From contig JADGEH010000015.1 in assembly GCA_016744475.1 (NCBI GenBank), positions 1-64,000 on the forward strand: a stretch of 64,000 nucleotides of DNA. Reading direction: 5' to 3'. The notes under the pieces are model-generated. The model made no database searches, was not told where the DNA came from, and saw only the letters and a list, made by a program, of their open reading frames with translations. The position numbers and the translations under genes were made by a program. Positions 26,440 through 38,810 of the stretch are shown here, in pieces; position 1 is the first letter of the stretch, and each line of letters begins with the position of its first letter. The DNA comes from Thiotrichales bacterium. GTDB taxonomy: Bacteria; Pseudomonadota; Gammaproteobacteria; Beggiatoales; Beggiatoaceae.

Positions 26440-26829
26440 ATCTCAAGCCTTTTTTCTTAAATGAATGGTCGTGTCTCCCTGCGGGGCAAAACGTTGCGGC
26501 GAATGGGTTACAATCTGGGTTAAATATTAGACTGGTTGCGAGGGTAGGGTAGTAAGAATTATTTGAGACTAGGTGAGATGAGACAGAACTAGATGAAATT
26601 TACAAGTTGCTGATTTACTTTAGAATCAGTGCTGGACGAGTGGTTCTGTTTATTTGAGATTCCAGCCTAGATTGACTTAGTTTATTTTGCTATGGATTGC
26701 GGTAAACCAACGGTTTTAGTGGGTTCTGTCAGGGTAGCTTAATTTTGCGTGGTCAATATGTTGTTGTGAGTAAACAACCCGGTAAACAACCAGTAAACAA
26801 CTTATTATACTTACGCAACTAAGTTGCGT
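26440..26829. other. Host-prophage junction region
   Basis: This 390-bp stretch lies between the synthase stop and the prophage mor gene. The left end of the prophage should be inside it; transposable phages begin with 5'-TG, and the TG at 26759 followed by phased GTAAACAAC repeats is my preferred candidate. GTTCTGT/ACAGAAC motifs occur at about 26583, 26643 and 26725 in mixed orientation and could be part of the end as well, in which case the boundary lies further left. A short palindrome (ACGCAACT-A-AGTTGCGT) ends at the mor stop. Confidence 0.5.
26770..26801. repeat. Phased GTAAACAAC repeats, candidate transposase-binding sites
   Basis: GTAAACAAC occurs three times (26770-26778, 26782-26790, 26793-26801), spaced 12 and 11 bp, so all copies face the same side of the helix. 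A variant GGTAAACCAAC lies at 26701-26711. The position is the expected left terminus of the prophage. Mu ends carry several transposase-binding repeats, so this is the natural reading; operators are the alternative. Confidence 0.55.
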
Positions 26830-30456: not shown

Positions 30457-30670
30457 TGCGTTGCTCCAAAATTCGGCAGCCCGTGCAATCGTCGCGGGGA
30501 CACTGCATACAGACTGCATTGGCATCATTGTGTTGCGCGATTAACTCAACTAACGCAGTGTATTGCCGTTGTTTAGTCGGAGAGGGATAACGCCCGTTGC
30601 GCAATAACGAGGCGGTGGTCTTAGACACACCTAAGACCGCGCCAATAGCCTTTAGACTGAGGTTAGTCAC
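30443..30670 (-). CDS. Small HTH protein with a four-cysteine motif
   Basis: 75 residues. The N-terminal half is a helix-turn-helix: SLKAIGAVLGVSKTTASLLR. The C-terminal half has CMQCPRDDCTGC (C-x2-C-x4-C-x2-C), a pattern that could bind zinc or an Fe-S cluster. It begins inside the end of the MuB gene and ends inside the gemA start. It could be a small phage regulator; the ligand is undetermined. Confidence 0.72.
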   Translation of the reverse strand: MTNLSLKAIGAVLGVSKTTASLLRNGRYPSPTKQRQYTALVELIAQHNDANAVCMQCPRDDCTGCRILEQRNEKD

Positions 30671-31379
30671 GACTATTCGCCATCCACAGTATGGCGGTAT
30701 CCAGGATGGCTTTGTTTAGCGTGGCAGCCCCATCAATCTTCATCAGGCGCAAACACTCGTCACGCAGTTCAACCCCTTCACCCCAATTCCCTTTCCGGCA
30801 ACCCTTCCAAAACTGTTCTGCCAGTGGTACCAGTTGTTTTGCTTCGCCAAAGGCCGGCTTGAAAATATTCACGTAAGTGTCGGCTTTATCGAGCGCCTTT
30901 AGTTTTAGTCGCTTAGCACCAATACGCCGCCCCAATTGCAGCAGCAGCGCCTTGGTGCGAGCCGCAGTAAATTGCTGGCTATATAACTCAGTCCCCACCA
31001 GAATCACCGCCCAGTGGCATTCGTCAGACAGATAACGCAGCAGTTCCAGCCCCGCCCATTTCAGCTTATTAGCTTCGTCCACTACCAAGACCCGTCGCGT
31101 CTTTTCTGTGTTCATCAGAGCATCCAGAAAATATCGCGTACTGCCTTCAACCCCAGCCCCTTTAGCAATAGCCCGTAACAATTGCGCCTGAGTCATATTG
31201 TGGTAACACGCCACGCGCACTGCGCCCAGCGTCTCAACTAATGCGAACCCAGCGGCGGTTTTACCCGTCCCTGTACCGCCCGTGATTTCCCCAATCGCCT
31301 GCTGATTACAATCACGTACCTGCTCAGCCAGACTGAGCGCATCCCGCACCACTTTAGTTTTTTGAAACGTAAGGCTCAT
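30663..31379 (-). CDS. MuB-like transposition target-selection ATPase
   Basis: 238 residues, AAA+ ATPase. Walker A is GEITGGTGTGKTAAGF, Walker B is RRVLVVDEANKLKWAG, and the sensor-like VILVGTELYSQQF follows. Together with MuA it activates the transposase and brings target DNA. The short C-terminus and absence of the long Mu N-terminal HTH part are usual for this wider family. The gene has GGGAGAGG before its ATG and overlaps the preceding small gene. Confidence 0.9.
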   Translation of the reverse strand: MSLTFQKTKVVRDALSLAEQVRDCNQQAIGEITGGTGTGKTAAGFALVETLGAVRVACYHNMTQAQLLRAIAKGAGVEGSTRYFLDALMNTEKTRRVLVVDEANKLKWAGLELLRYLSDECHWAVILVGTELYSQQFTAARTKALLLQLGRRIGAKRLKLKALDKADTYVNIFKPAFGEAKQLVPLAEQFWKGCRKGNWGEGVELRDECLRLMKIDGAATLNKAILDTAILWMANSRD

Positions 31380-31764: not shown

Positions 31765-33855
31765 CTATTCATCACCAAAAATCAGTCGAGCGGCGCGTTC
31801 TTCCTCAGTCTCTTCTGTGTCAAAACGTCTAACGTGCTCGACAGAGGTGGCCTGCTGTGCGTCGTCTAATATCCGCTGCACACCCGACTCCAGTGCCGCT
31901 TGCTTCGCTTTCAGCATCGCTTTGGACTCTGCTGAAGGTGTCACCAAACTGGCTTTTTGTTGTGCGCGTTCCACGGTGTCATTGACACCCGCTAACCGAC
32001 CGCGCACACCGACTAACTCATCCTGCTCAAAAGTCTGAACTTGACCCTGCATGTTATCGACGACTTTTTTCAGTACACCCTTGCGCCGACTGGCTTCAGC
32101 AGCCCCCGCCGCCTCCAATAAACCAAACGTCTGGTCGGGCAGTGCTGCACATAAAAATGTGCCGTCCAAATTAAAAACGAAAAGACAAACCGGGTTATGT
32201 TTGGGGTAACGAACATGAACTTCTTGCTGCAAGCCCACCAACTCATCGGCATACCAATCCGTGCCTTTGAACTGAATCACGCCACGCTTGACTCGGCGGG
32301 TATCCTGTTCAGCAAATCCCAGCAACAACACATCAGGGTCTACGCGAATCGGAGTCCAATCCGACGCTAAAAACGCATCAATACTCTCTGCGGGAGATGT
32401 CCCTGCTAACAACCCAGACTGCGCGGTGCCGTGATAATCTGCCAGACTACCTGCCAAAAAATCTTGCAACTCCGTGAATGGAATCGGCTTCGGTGCTTGC
32501 CCTAAACTGTGTGATTTTTTGGACATCCTATTGCCTGCTTGCCAGGCCGGATGCCATCCTAACCAGTAACGCAAATTACCAAAGCCGCCTTCAATCAACT
32601 TAGCGCGTGGGCGATACGGTACCGAGCGAATCAGAGTGCCCGCATCAGGATTCAAGCTATCCAATTCAACGTGAATCTTGTTACCCGTCAAATAAGCCAG
32701 CTCACTCCACGCCCCCAGCATATCCTCCCATTTGTATTCCGATCCGTTATCCAGATAGAGGCGTAAAGGCATGCCAAACGGCGCTTGATCCGCCATTTCA
32801 GAAAACGACAGCGCTACATGCTCACGCCGTACTCCGGTACCTTGTGGACACAAATACAACGAGACAAAAAACCAATTAGTCGCTGCATCCATCCAGGCGA
32901 TCATCCGAGCGTAGGCTGTGCTGCCGTCTTCACGTAACACCGGAATATCCGCAGGGCTAATATCCCCAAACACCAAATCCCCCGGTAACAAATGTCCGCG
33001 TGTGCGAGTAATAGACGGTAAATACTGGTCGTACACGAGTTTCGCATCCCGTGCGCTGGCAGCCACCAATGAATAGCGCCGTTCAGCCGAAATAAACTTA
33101 CGTGGCATTTTTAACTTCAACACCGCCTTCACCTGTGCCGCCTCTAGTCCCAGGTCTGCTAGATGTTGTCCTAATTTTGCCGTGGCTTGCAGCCACACCT
33201 GACGCTCTGATTTACCGCCCGATGCCCAAAGACCGCGTACCCACTGCAACATCTGCTCGCTCAATGTGGCTATCATCTCCGGTGGCACCTGCGAACCCTT
33301 TAACAGCCGTTCAAACTCAGCGCTCACCAACACCCGTGCTTGGCCTTCATCACCACGTTTTTTCGGCATCAAACCTTCAAGGCCGTTTTCTCGATAAGCT
33401 TTTTCCCAGCGGTACAGCGTCGCCACCGACTCCCCGGTATGTTCGCAAATCAATGATGCCGCCGCCCGTCTCCCTCTGGAGCGCGGGGGTAACTTCAATA
33501 ACGGCTGAATCACCTCCAAACGTTGTTGCGCGATCTGAACCCGTTTCGTCTTACCCGCATCCACACTGCTCGGTAGTAACAAACCCGCCTGTGTCTCACG
33601 GGGCGTTGACCGCCCTTCCAGCGGTTTAAACTGATCGTGCCATTGCGCTTGCGCCCAGTCCGGTAAGCTGTTCAGTGCGATGTGCCACTGTTGCCCACCT
33701 TGCCCACCTTGGGCGCACGGCAACGCTTCTGCGGTATAACGTTGGCGACGGATGCCCTTGTGTATCGCCTGAACAGTCACACCCAATAATTCAGCCGCCT
33801 GTGCAACGCTCAGCCAATCACGTTGTGGCTGTACTGCTATCGCTGTTGCTGGCAT
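31765..33855 (-). CDS. MuA-type DDE transposase
   Basis: 696 residues. An N-terminal Mu-type DNA-binding domain (DWLSVAQAAELLGVTVQAIH) is followed by helical end-binding domains (a second HTH at CEHTGESVATLYRWEKAY). The RNase H-like DDE core has VFGDISPADIPV (first Asp, about residue 294), LRLYLDNGSEYKW (second Asp, about 370) and LIEGGFGNLRYW (Glu, about 422), then the MuA beta-barrel and a C-terminal tail for MuB contact. It cuts and joins phage ends during integration and replicative transposition. The ATG at 33855 is chosen because AAGGAGG precedes it; the frame is open further upstream. Confidence 0.95.
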   Translation of the reverse strand: MPATAIAVQPQRDWLSVAQAAELLGVTVQAIHKGIRRQRYTAEALPCAQGGQGGQQWHIALNSLPDWAQAQWHDQFKPLEGRSTPRETQAGLLLPSSVDAGKTKRVQIAQQRLEVIQPLLKLPPRSRGRRAAASLICEHTGESVATLYRWEKAYRENGLEGLMPKKRGDEGQARVLVSAEFERLLKGSQVPPEMIATLSEQMLQWVRGLWASGGKSERQVWLQATAKLGQHLADLGLEAAQVKAVLKLKMPRKFISAERRYSLVAASARDAKLVYDQYLPSITRTRGHLLPGDLVFGDISPADIPVLREDGSTAYARMIAWMDAATNWFFVSLYLCPQGTGVRREHVALSFSEMADQAPFGMPLRLYLDNGSEYKWEDMLGAWSELAYLTGNKIHVELDSLNPDAGTLIRSVPYRPRAKLIEGGFGNLRYWLGWHPAWQAGNRMSKKSHSLGQAPKPIPFTELQDFLAGSLADYHGTAQSGLLAGTSPAESIDAFLASDWTPIRVDPDVLLLGFAEQDTRRVKRGVIQFKGTDWYADELVGLQQEVHVRYPKHNPVCLFVFNLDGTFLCAALPDQTFGLLEAAGAAEASRRKGVLKKVVDNMQGQVQTFEQDELVGVRGRLAGVNDTVERAQQKASLVTPSAESKAMLKAKQAALESGVQRILDDAQQATSVEHVRRFDTEETEEERAARLIFGDE

Positions 33856-33865
33856 CGCGGCCTCC

Positions 33866-34060
33866 TTACGCCGCGTTGCGTCGTATATAATATTCGCGCC
33901 AATAGACATAATCGCAGGCGCGATAGCCGTCGCGCTTCACCGCCTGTGTGAAGTCCTCCACATTGACGCGCAGTACTGTTTCAGCCCATTCACGTAACGA
34001 GCGGCGAATGTAGTGATACGTGACCGGATAGTGGTCCGCATCCAAGCGTGTGGCGCTCAT
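33866..34060 (-). CDS. Small hypothetical early phage protein
   Basis: 64 residues, basic, aromatic-rich (YPVTYHYIRRSLREWAETV; ACDYVYWREYYIRRNAA). It starts four bases inside the preceding gene (ATGA) and ends ten bases before the transposase ATG. No family recognised. Confidence 0.65.
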   Translation of the reverse strand: MSATRLDADHYPVTYHYIRRSLREWAETVLRVNVEDFTQAVKRDGYRACDYVYWREYYIRRNAA

Positions 34061-36517: not shown

Positions 36518-37608
36518 GCCGCTTCTCCCATCAAGGCCACGCGAGACCCGCTGCGTGTCGCAAATAATGCGGTCAAGCTGCGCTGGGTTGCGGCGAGGGC
36601 GGGGTCGGTAGGCGGTGCCAGGCTTGCGCCCACTCGAATTGAATCGCAGGCGACACCGGACGCTGGATAATCCGGCTCACGGTTTTTAGAATGAATCGGG
36701 TCTGTGTACCCGTAGGCGTGCCGTCTGCCCCGGCGTAACGGCGAATAACGTTGCTGACGTTTTGTGGGATAACGTGTGCGTACCCCGGTTGTCGGCGGAT
36801 AAACCGGGCGACTTCGCTTTGCGTCCATCCCCGTTCCAGCAGCAGGCGGTTGACCTCCCGTATTGACTGTGGGGGTGTGGCAGCAGGCGGGTTTTTTTTG
36901 ACGTTGACTGCCATATAAAATCTCCCGAATGACAGGGGTTAAAAGAGGGGTGGAAGGGGCTTGTTCAGAACGAGTAACGCCTAGCCGTTCAGACATCACC
37001 GCGAAATCATTGGTATCGCTATCCAGGCTGATGCGTTGTAACGCTGTACGGCAACGTGTCCGATAATCCGTGTTAGCCGCGTCGGCTTCAGACATTTTTT
37101 TGTCCCCTAGACGCCGTAAAAAATCGCCCATCCCATCGTTGCTCTGGTCTGCAACCGCGTCAGCCCCTGCGTAGAAATCATCATTGCCTGTACGGATGTT
37201 TATACGACGAAGGCTGGCTGGCTGGTAGGCTGCGATAACGGCTAGACGGTAAGAGAACTTTATTTCGGCGGGTAGTGAACGCGCCGCCATTGCCGTAGCT
37301 TGGTCATGGGGAGTCACGTTGGAGTCTGTAGATTGTTTAGCCTCTGGCACTGCGCTATCATGAGAGACAGGAGGTAAGCCCAAAACAGCACGACCTGCGT
37401 CGGTGAGGCGATGCGTTTTACCTTCATCTTTGAGATACGACGAACAATGGCGCAGTTCAATGAGATCACGATCTTGCAGCGCTTTGGTCGTTTTGTGGTG
37501 AGGGAATCGGGGTTGAATTTCATTTTTAAAATGAACGCGGAATTCATCTCGATGCAAATAATATTGCAAACCTTGAATCATCCGTTCTGTGAGTGCTTGT
37601 TTGTTCAT
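36514..37608 (-). CDS. Hypothetical protein, first gene of the leftward early operon
   Basis: 364 residues if the frame is read through. The first 240 look like a real protein: an N-terminal winged-helix-like part (LTERMIQGLQYYLHRDEF; KALQDRDLIELRHCSSYL; HRLTDAGRAVLGL), then a Ser/Asp-rich region (LRRLGDKKMSEADAANTDYR). The last 120 residues overlap the HTH gene at 36573-36914 in another frame and have a composition (Arg/Pro/Tyr/Ser) that looks like out-of-frame translation, yet no stop interrupts them and the end forms a clean ATGA junction. AAGGAAG precedes the ATG. It may be a regulator; the true C-terminus is uncertain. Confidence 0.6.
   Translation of the reverse strand: MNKQALTERMIQGLQYYLHRDEFRVHFKNEIQPRFPHHKTTKALQDRDLIELRHCSSYLKDEGKTHRLTDAGRAVLGLPPVSHDSAVPEAKQSTDSNVTPHDQATAMAARSLPAEIKFSYRLAVIAAYQPASLRRINIRTGNDDFYAGADAVADQSNDGMGDFLRRLGDKKMSEADAANTDYRTRCRTALQRISLDSDTNDFAVMSERLGVTRSEQAPSTPLLTPVIREILYGSQRQKKPACCHTPTVNTGGQPPAAGTGMDAKRSRPVYPPTTGVRTRYPTKRQQRYSPLRRGRRHAYGYTDPIHSKNREPDYPASGVACDSIRVGASLAPPTDPALAATQRSLTALFATRSGSRVALMGEAA
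36573..36914 (-). CDS. HTH protein nested in another reading frame
   Basis: 113 residues. SIREVNRLLLERGWTQSEVA followed by RFIRRQPGYAHVIPQNVSNV is a helix-turn-helix pattern. A strong initiation site (CGGGAGATTTTATATG) precedes the ATG and is shared with the gene starting at 34248, which argues that it is translated. It lies entirely within the 3' part of the longer frame 36514-37608, in a different frame. Probably a phage regulator. Confidence 0.65.
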   Translation of the reverse strand: MAVNVKKNPPAATPPQSIREVNRLLLERGWTQSEVARFIRRQPGYAHVIPQNVSNVIRRYAGADGTPTGTQTRFILKTVSRIIQRPVSPAIQFEWAQAWHRLPTPPSPQPSAA

Positions 37609-37626
37609 GATGCTTCCTTATGTTTA

Positions 37627-37653
37627 ACGCCGACGGCAATCGGCGTTTTTTTT
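37627..37653. promoter_or_regulatory. Hairpin with T run in the early leader
   Basis: ACGCCGA-CGGCAA-TCGGCGT followed by T8 looks like a terminator on the plus strand, where there is no gene to end. On the minus strand it lies in the leader of the early operon, immediately upstream of its first ribosome site, and could influence early translation or block antisense transcription into the switch. Confidence 0.5.
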
Positions 37654-37681
37654 GGGTTAAAGTGATTAAAAGTGATTCAGT
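37652..37681. promoter_or_regulatory. Operator cluster 1, three phased repeats
   Basis: TTGGGTTAAA, GTGATTAAAA and GTGATTCAGT follow each other at 10-bp spacing and match the four repeats of cluster 2 (consensus GTGRTTNAA). The cluster lies just upstream of the leftward early operon, where the early promoter should be, so repressor binding here would silence lytic genes. Confidence 0.65.
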
Positions 37682-37935
37682 ACAGCGTAAAAAAATCACC
37701 GCTCTGTCGCCAGCGGCGCGGCTGCCGCTGTCTCAAGGGACACCGAAAACCCTCGGCTAGACTGTTATTAGAGGTCGTAGGTTCCGCGTGATGCGTCAAC
37801 ATCACCGCTCTGCGCTACAGGAGCTAACGCATAACTCTAACGACCACAACGCGACAGACAACGCTGTGTGTTTTATCGGTTTTAAGTTGTAAAACGGCGG
37901 AGTTCAGTCCGCTTTTACTGACTCAGGAGTGAACC
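37682..37935. other. Non-coding stretch of the switch region, possible structured RNA
   Basis: This 254-bp gap (327 bp including cluster 1 and the hairpin) holds no gene. It has several short stems: CAGCGGC/GCCGCTG (37711-37730), TGTC/GACA shortly after, and GTGATG/CATCAC near 37788. A 12-base direct repeat ATCACCGCTCTG occurs near 37695 and 37801. This may be a structured leader of the following small gene, or promoter DNA. Confidence 0.4.
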
Positions 37936-38121
37936 ATGAGCGACATTGATTTATTGATGACAAAATACAAAAAACTCATATCAACCAATGACATAACAGA
38001 AGCTAATCACTTCATGGCATCTGGTTGGGATTTGTTAAAAATACTGACCACTGTGGAGCAAGGTAAAGATGAGCAAGCGTTGTATATACTGGGTTCAACC
38101 TTGCCCGAAGCTAAAAAATAG
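37936..38121 (+). CDS. Small switch-region protein, paralogue A
   Basis: 61 residues: MSDIDLLMTKYKKLI, then ITEANHFMASGWDLLKIL and a hydrophilic tail. AGGAG precedes the ATG. The central segment aligns with the product of the facing gene at 38122-38262 (ANQLLAADFVLLHIF), so the two are probably diverged copies. Its stop codon directly abuts the stop of that gene. Function unknown; the position between the two operator clusters suggests a role in the lysis-lysogeny decision. Confidence 0.7.
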   Translation: MSDIDLLMTKYKKLISTNDITEANHFMASGWDLLKILTTVEQGKDEQALYILGSTLPEAKK

Positions 38122-38262
38122 CTATTTGTATCGCCCCAGCAAATACTCACAGCCATCGGTTTTTTCAAAAATGTGAAGTAATACGAAATCAGCGGCCAGT
38201 AACTGATTGGCGTCTTTGATTGTTTTTACCATTTGCAAAAAAGAAATGTCTTTCAGTGCCAT
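38122..38262 (-). CDS. Small switch-region protein, paralogue B
   Basis: 46 residues: MALKDISFLQMVKTIKDANQ, then LLAADFVLLHIFEKTDGC and EYLLGRYK. It uses ordinary codons and AGGTAA lies upstream of the ATG. It matches paralogue A in the pattern ANxxxAxxxxLLxIxE/T...(E)YxLG. The gene converges on paralogue A with no base between the two stop codons. It was found by reading the minus strand of an apparently empty gap. Confidence 0.6.
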   Translation of the reverse strand: MALKDISFLQMVKTIKDANQLLAADFVLLHIFEKTDGCEYLLGRYK

Positions 38263-38290
38263 GAGGCTTACCTGCTGTTTTAAGTGCTGT

Positions 38291-38330
38291 GTGGTTCAAC
38301 GTGGTTGAATGTGGTTAAAAGTGATTCAAC
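38291..38330. promoter_or_regulatory. Operator cluster 2, four tandem 10-bp repeats
   Basis: GTGGTTCAAC, GTGGTTGAAT, GTGGTTAAAA and GTGATTCAAC run head to tail with exact 10-bp periodicity, one helical turn each. They lie 45 bp upstream of the repressor gene, just before a possible -35 (TTGGTG). The phage repressor or transposase enhancer binding (as in Mu) are the likely users. Confidence 0.7.
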
Positions 38331-38375
38331 TTGGTGAGGATTCTAGTACATAAACTATTTACTAGCAACTAAAAA

Positions 38376-38810
38376 ATGTACCAAATGACAAAAAAAGATT
38401 TACCAGAGCAAGTAATTGCTCGTATGAAGAAAGCTTACGGTGTTGAGCAAAGCCTTGAATTAGCTAAGAAATTAGGCGTTTCAAAGCAAGCTGTTTACAA
38501 CTGGTATCAGTCAAAAAAAGGGGTGCCCGTAGAATATGCGCAAAAATGTAAAGAGGATTGTGAGATTAGTCTTGATTTTCTGTACTACGGTGAAGAAATG
38601 GGGGTTTATGAAGCCACCAATGGGCGCAAAGTGGATACCAACATGCTGTCGCAACGCACTATGAATTTGACTAATACGCAGCGTTTAGCTGTTGCTAAAA
38701 TGCTAGAAGGTTTAGAAGACTTAATTGAACAGTTTGAGTCAGAAAACAAAAAAACAGATTTAATCAAAGAGATGGCATCGCGATTGGCTGAATTGGAGAG
38801 GGAAAAATGA
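38376..38810 (+). CDS. CI-like phage repressor (helix-turn-helix)
   Basis: 144 residues. The N-terminal domain SLELAKKLGVSKQAVYNWYQ with SKKGVPVEYAQKCKED is a phage CI-type helix-turn-helix (Bac_CI_repr-like). The C-terminal half is helical and may oligomerise (NTQRLAVAKMLEGLEDLIEQ). There is no peptidase domain, so induction would not be by self-cleavage. There is little ribosome-site signal; a second ATG three codons in is an alternative start. It is transcribed away from the early operon, next to operator cluster 2. Confidence 0.82.
   Translation: MYQMTKKDLPEQVIARMKKAYGVEQSLELAKKLGVSKQAVYNWYQSKKGVPVEYAQKCKEDCEISLDFLYYGEEMGVYEATNGRKVDTNMLSQRTMNLTNTQRLAVAKMLEGLEDLIEQFESENKKTDLIKEMASRLAELEREK

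Follow-up and report, generated by a model that had tools for sequence, protein, structure and literature searches.

Phage Mu has a textbook DNA site, the Mu enhancer, that is shared by its repressor and its transposase; to our knowledge, little is apparently known of Mu-type enhancers in other transposable phages. The locus described here, within a 64,000-nucleotide stretch of DNA from a Thiotrichales bacterium (the window), raises the question of which protein reads a set of 10-bp direct repeats in a prophage switch region. The sequence-only reading of this DNA had described three and four copies of GTGRTTNAA with exact helical spacing, one group by the early promoter and one by the repressor gene, about 610 bp apart, and had predicted either looping mediated by the repressor or a Mu-like transposition enhancer.

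The repeats lie in the switch region of a B3-organized prophage

On the contig that holds the window (C147, 70,024 bases), a Mu-type transposable prophage with B3-like organization extends from 26557 to contig position 66176, bounded by inverted end sequences (Table 1). A DDE transposase, a MuB-like ATPase and inverted end sites are all present, as in Mu-type elements, and the early operon is inverted relative to the late genes, with the repressor between them: the transposase, the ATPase and a DnaB-like helicase (recognized by eye) run leftward, and the repressor (38376–38810) and late genes run rightward. This gene order is that of phage B3, whose early operon has the opposite orientation to that of Mu (PMC5977238, excerpts). 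Both repeat clusters sit in the lysis–lysogeny switch of the prophage, with the array in this B3 layout ~11.7 kb from the left prophage end.

Three GTAAACAAC repeats with 11–12-bp spacing lie inside the left end, after the helicase operon (window 26768–26801), and one relative, L025, shares GACTAGGTGAGA with the left end of the window. Elsewhere in this genome, a 3.3-kb contig (L008, G000:C149), which is a fragment of another transposable phage, encodes a second MuA-like transposase, 38% identical.

Table 1. Features of the prophage and its switch region, in window coordinates unless stated otherwise
Feature	Position	Strand	Remarks
Left prophage end AATTATTTGAGACT	26557..26570	+	Inverted copy AGTCTCAAATAATT at contig 66163-66176, beyond the window
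MuB-like transposition ATPase	30663..31379	-	phrog_296
Mu-type DDE transposase (MuA)	31765..33909	-	phrog_310, Mu-transpos_C
MuA residues 29-103, winged-helix domain	33601..33825	-	Like Mu transposase I-alpha; candidate array reader
Left array	37652..37680	+	Three copies in 10-bp register, with 2, 0 and 1 mismatches in order
61-aa ORF	37936..38121	+	Between clusters, repressor strand
46-aa ORF	38122..38262	-	First reading frame downstream of candidate early promoter
Right array	38291..38329	+	Four exact in-phase 10-bp direct repeats GTGRTTNAAN
Promoter-like site TTGCTA-17-TAGAAT	38340..38368	-	Candidate leftward early promoter, consensus match only
23-bp imperfect palindrome CTAGTACATAAACTATTTACTAG	38343..38365	.	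Candidate repressor operator
Repressor gene, 144 aa	38376..38810	+	Phage_CI_repr (PF07022) HTH and predicted long C-terminal helix

Two clusters share one register and an 18-bp core

In the right cluster, exact GTGRTTNAA copies begin at 38291, 38301, 38311 and 38321, a spacing of exactly 10 bp. All three copies of the left cluster keep the 10-bp register, but only the copy at 37662 is exact; that at 37672 carries one mismatch and that at 37652 is wrong at two of the eight specified positions. The described count of three plus four copies is confirmed for the right cluster and in part for the left; the 10-bp spacing holds in both clusters, and the gap between them, measured from 37680 to 38291, is 610 bp. 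The clusters are further linked by an 18-bp core, GTGRTTAAAAGTGATTCA, of which each cluster has one copy, ~650 bp apart, and the window no other (0.10 expected at three mismatches or fewer); in the rest of the genome there is a further copy that differs at one position, and three more differ at two.

Across 600 strand-scans of Markov-shuffled 64-kb windows, a spacing-10 pair with at most one mismatch appeared three times, and neither a repeat triple with at most two mismatches nor a quadruple with at most four appeared at all. A strict triple scan of window positions 26557–64000 returned the right array as its sole find, and the array scored above 100 of 100 shuffles of the 118-bp switch stretch. 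Over a 310-bp stretch the simple 9-mer count (4) merely equaled the best of 12 shuffles, and a triple scan of the left region alone picked unrelated sequence instead of the left cluster, with 10 of 200 shuffles as good. Single GTGRTTNAA copies number 13 in the window (5.6 expected), five of them within the clusters and the others near chance. The four-copy right cluster and the weaker left cluster are real, and are not expected from shuffled sequence.

Fine structure of the switch

Read leftward from the repressor start, the switch begins with the promoter-like site, a palindrome over its spacer, the four-copy array and the 46-aa ORF. Beyond these come the oppositely oriented 61-aa ORF, a GC-rich segment that can fold and contains terminator-like sites, and finally the left cluster, followed by a further leftward ORF. 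The repeats are thus located beside the repressor gene and the candidate early promoter, as in the Mu-type enhancer layout. The leftward early promoter and its transcription start are presumed to lie at the promoter-like site, of which one was found and 1.9 were expected, a count not above the shuffle mean. The palindrome spans the −35/−10 spacer of this site and is separate from the array; shuffles gave one as good in 5 of 300 cases for a 47-bp stretch, 17 of 300 for 114 bp and 4 of 60 for 158 bp. No match to the IHF consensus WATCAANNNNTTR was found in or near the clusters, IHF sites being degenerate.

The GC-rich stretch between the clusters (37690–37935) is foldable on both strands (folding z about −2.4 for + and −2.2 for −), with two terminator-like sites, one leftward at 37718–37697, immediately ahead of the left cluster, and the other rightward at 37626–37647; it may represent a small RNA or an attenuator acting on the early operon. 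Comparison of the inter-cluster stretch with Rfam gave no family at the gathering threshold and weak, chance-level matches only. The 46-aa (−) and 61-aa (+) ORFs are convergent; homology of the two was rejected on the basis of BLASTP, which gave no alignment, and the 61-aa ORF had no match in 94 other related genomes.

The repressor and the transposase N-terminus

Among PDB sequences the repressor matches 186 CI best (2FJR, E = 0.051), and only over its first 95 residues; a 186-type C-terminal oligomerization domain was not recognized in the 144-aa protein, and its C-terminal region was modeled as one helix (block pLDDT 54–77). No close repressor relatives were found in viral contigs, genome contigs or phage records: matches at E ≤ 0.001 came from 3 of 95 relatives (its own genome, G010 and G029), the same three were returned from 42 family genomes at 1e-4, and at 1e-5 its own was the only one of 369 class genomes. 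The two family relatives of the repressor, L003 and L002, have palindromes upstream of their genes, a 25-bp palindrome present three times in L003 and a shorter one in L002. At the other CI-type repressor loci (L036, L069, L061, L045, L040, L046 and L060), palindromes around the start of the repressor do not exceed chance level; L060 has one above-chance palindrome, but far from that start.

The N-terminus of the transposase was modeled with a mean pLDDT of 74 and blocks above 90 in the domain. The best VIA structural match was the enhancer-binding domain of Mu transposase (1TNS, Z = 7.7, rmsd 2.9, 72 aligned; Foldseek E-value 0.033), followed by BldC–DNA (Z = 7.3), the Mu repressor DNA-binding domain (7.1) and Pukovnik Xis (7.0), all below the Z of 8 under which, the tool warns, a match can reflect just a common arrangement; it calls the range of the 1TNS score common for models without clear matches. 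The transposase N-terminus of the window thus models as the Mu enhancer-binding fold, and a common fold does not imply a common target. By sequence, it is a distant member (30 bits) of the majority class, class C. Massive length variation of the N-terminal subdomain has been described among MuA homologues (PMC3362531, excerpts).

Arrays in related prophages

Through the transposase, 85 loci were gathered (63 from genomes and 22 from viral contigs). The triple pattern occurs in 1 of 95 related genomes, that of the window itself, and in one viral contig, L011, where no repressor is beside it and its neighbors are a lysozyme-like gene on one side and a retroelement-type reverse transcriptase gene on the other (both assigned by eye). 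This unrelated viral contig (L011/L015, 1490–1531) displays tandem GTGGTTCAAA and CGGACGGTTT repeats with a 10-bp period.

A strict scan of the 85 loci gave 24 arrays in 19 loci, compared with one in all from one shuffle of each. By eye, L023, L024/L095, L026, L099 and L074 were called as having switch arrays and L025, L085, L050, L029 and L076 as having probable end sites, with some of the remaining arrays judged to be coding or host repeats. Tandem 10-bp repeats resembling phage left-end (transposase) sites are located at L025 8076–8105, L085 162–191, L050 192, L029 8008 and L076 8022. The start of MuA is complete in 63 loci; some 9-mer cluster occurs in 29 of these, against none in one shuffle of each, and 12 of the 29 were counted as repressor-proximal arrays. 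At the five-copy threshold the window has no 9-mer cluster. For conservation in related prophages, a point raised by the sequence-only reading, the outcome is divided: the exact motif is absent, but a similar arrangement is present in several relatives.

The array unit is AAGYSGGRM in L021, L086, L099, L023 and L026, AATYGGAAC-like in L010, L024, L025 and L087, and of the AASTTKCACC type in L027, L030 and L085. L010, L025 and L087 also have two clusters each, ~113–115 bp apart, so the window is not alone in this layout. In class A and B relatives the array is directly beside the early promoter, between the repressor and the early gene, and in L027, L030 and L085 (class D) it is located not at the early promoter but between the repressor gene's 3′ end and a second leftward gene. 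Except in L074, which has its array downstream of the repressor gene, no array was seen beside the repressor in class C relatives. As the scans flag neither Mu's own enhancer nor B3, D3112 or B23, the absence of an array, including in class C, is weak evidence.

Early-promoter palindromes are clear in L087 and L021 (1 and 9 of 300 shuffles as good, respectively) and marginal in L024 (20 of 300). A palindrome over the early promoter was rejected as a general rule, with L010, L023, L025, L026, L086 and L099 at chance level, and the palindrome argument therefore rests on class D and the window.

The array unit varies with the transposase N-terminus

Sorting the loci by array unit or by sequence class of the transposase N-terminus gives the same three groups. 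Over 12 loci whose array adjoins the repressor gene, unit similarity followed that of the MuA N-terminus (r = 0.78; partial r = 0.57 given the repressor HTH, 0 of 2000 permutations) and, taken alone, that of the repressor HTH (r = 0.66), which fell to −0.08 given the MuA N-terminus (1538 of 2000 permutations); these 12 loci form three clusters and were hand-chosen, with units partly picked by eye and permutations that leave shared ancestry in. Machine-picked 9-mers gave 0.49 for the MuA N-terminus (2 of 1000) versus −0.08 for the repressor HTH, and the MuA N-terminus result held when each class was left out in turn, although without class A the repressor term rose to 0.32 (50 of 1000). Because they belong to neighboring genes, the MuA N-terminus and the repressor HTH are themselves correlated (r = 0.87), and linkage could mimic specificity. 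Left out of the comparison are the window, L074, L095 (which duplicates L024) and two loci whose contigs are too short, L022 and L084; L087 (4 copies, equal to its best shuffle) was added by eye.

The transposases of L085 and L021 have cores that are 89% identical over 656 aa, whereas their N-termini belong to different classes (35% over 37 aa) and their arrays differ, so the catalytic core does not explain the array unit. Similarly, L022 (107–2212) and L087 (1287–3395) have cores that are 97% identical and N-termini that are 44% identical, the L022 contig stopping before the switch. Both pairs are natural domain swaps of the transposase N-terminus.

The converse is seen in class D. L027, L030 and L085 all have an array of five copies with spacings of 14, 18, 14 and 22–24, while their early-promoter palindromes differ (GAGAACTTTAGTTCTC, GTGTCCAAATGGACAC and TGTCCACGAACGTGGACA, with 2, 2 and 1 of 100 shuffles as good, respectively) and their repressors are 85–93% identical in the C-parts and only 44–59% in the HTHs. 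The repressor HTH and the promoter-spacer palindrome change together as the array stays constant. These comparisons suggest that, in the 12 relatives, the array unit tracks the N-terminal domain of the transposase and not the repressor HTH.

Discussion

The explanation we tentatively favor, with a confidence somewhat short of even, is that the transposase reads an enhancer-like array head-to-tail and that the palindrome is the repressor operator. The clusters would then be a switch-proximal direct-repeat element of a B3-organized Mu-type transposable prophage, analogous to the internal transposition enhancer of Mu. We infer that the array is bound by the winged-helix domain of MuA (residues about 29–103), one domain per 10-bp turn, and that this binding would aid transposition. 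BldC and excisionase-type proteins, likewise winged helices, bind direct repeats about one helix turn apart in head-to-tail fashion (PMC5859096 and PMC7498355, excerpts); the proposed reader differs in being a DDE transposase domain, no separate excisionase having been recognized. The four-copy cluster would be the main element and the left cluster a weaker second leg, available to the transposase for bridging or bending. The main target of the CI-type repressor would be the palindrome at 38343–38365, over the −35/−10 spacer of the leftward early promoter, as its presumed operator; this separate palindrome and the class D relatives suggest that operator and enhancer may be split in the window. 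Of the two outcomes predicted originally, the relatives favor the enhancer, and looping by the 38376 repressor gained no specific support; its family is CI-type, L002 and L003 have palindromic sites, and the window has its own promoter palindrome.

The Mu enhancer is located about 1 kb from the left end and contains an IHF site. In the window, by contrast, the early operon is inverted and the array is far more distant from the left end (~11.7 kb), clean 10-bp tandems replace the degenerate Mu sites that the same scan does not flag, the repressor is CI-type and not a homologue of the transposase N-terminus, and the operator appears separate from the array. The likeness to the Mu enhancer (internal activation sequence, O1–O2) lies in an element by the repressor gene of a Mu-type phage and in a transposase N-terminal winged helix of the Mu-enhancer-binding fold (PMC3362531 and PMC5977238, excerpts). 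The Pseudomonas phages B3 and Fc02 likewise have a leftward early operon with rightward repressor and late genes, and the 61-aa ORF, small and on the repressor strand upstream of the repressor, recalls olg1 of Fc02; unlike the window, B3 shows no tandem array in its 85-bp intergenic region. The enhancer reading is weakened because the window alone carries the motif, without a close relative, because most transposases of class C, its distant class, showed no comparable array, and because class A and B arrays adjoin the early promoter, as an operator would. The disparity in distance from the left end, the lack of an IHF consensus near the region and the unremarkable Z for 1TNS weaken it further.

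The clusters could instead be operator arrays of the 38376 repressor, bound cooperatively as direct repeats, although we consider this less likely than the enhancer. On this account, repressor bound at about +4 to +42 would block the leftward early promoter and regulate its own gene and, by analogy with 186 CI, might also reach the left cluster across the 610-bp gap by looping or bridging. The array does occupy the repressor–early intergenic stretch, adjoining the candidate early promoter; class A and B arrays lie between repressor and early gene, with the unit correlated with the HTH when that is considered alone, and class C transposases mostly showed no such array. The best PDB match is to 186 CI, which acts through distal sites and makes loops in vitro (PMC8053113, excerpts), the two separated clusters suggest bridging, and the predicted long C-terminal helix could oligomerize. 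However, the HTH correlation vanishes once the MuA N-terminus is accounted for, the class D array is constant while the repressor HTH and promoter palindrome change, and the CI-type relatives L002 and L003 have palindromic sites; unlike 186 CI, moreover, the 144-aa protein has no recognized 186-type C-terminal domain and the window sites are direct repeats.

It is unlikely that the array is read by another small protein, such as a Ner-, CII- or excisionase-like early regulator of the phage or a host response regulator. Excisionase/Cox/Apl-type proteins do bind 10–11-bp direct repeats between early promoters, as for 186 Apl (PMC7498355, excerpts). The B3 early operon includes annotated CII-like and HTH genes, and the window's includes small ORFs, one of which (36573–36914) has a weak HTH match, but no CII, Ner or excisionase family was recognized among the early ORFs scanned, and such a reader does not predict tracking with the MuA N-terminus in relatives. 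Finally, a functionless microrepeat arising from chance or slippage is very improbable. Such tandems do arise elsewhere, as the GTGGTTCAAA repeat of the retroelement-bearing viral contig L011 illustrates, and the exact motif is found in no relative; against this stand four diverged in-phase copies and a second cluster sharing the 18-bp core, placed exactly in the switch, and the absence of such triples from all 600 shuffled strand-scans.

Returning to the enhancer-like array read by the transposase, we would extend it to the clade with a little more reserve: operator and enhancer functions, which overlap in Mu, may be split here between an early-promoter palindrome for the CI-type repressor and a switch-proximal array for the transposase, with the MuA N-terminus and the array forming an exchangeable lock-and-key module on different cores. 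The window would then have its own version, GTGRTTNAA, far from both ends of a B3-type inverted genome, a proposal put forward just as guardedly. No matched pairs of array and N-terminus were described in the titles and abstract openings of published work on transposable-phage operators and enhancers, a body of work mostly without subscription papers. If the lock-and-key account is true, the enhancer of an uncharacterized Mu-like phage would be findable by sequence and its reader predictable, partner specificity would be testable through natural domain swaps such as L085/L021, and control of transposition would be separable from control of lysogeny.
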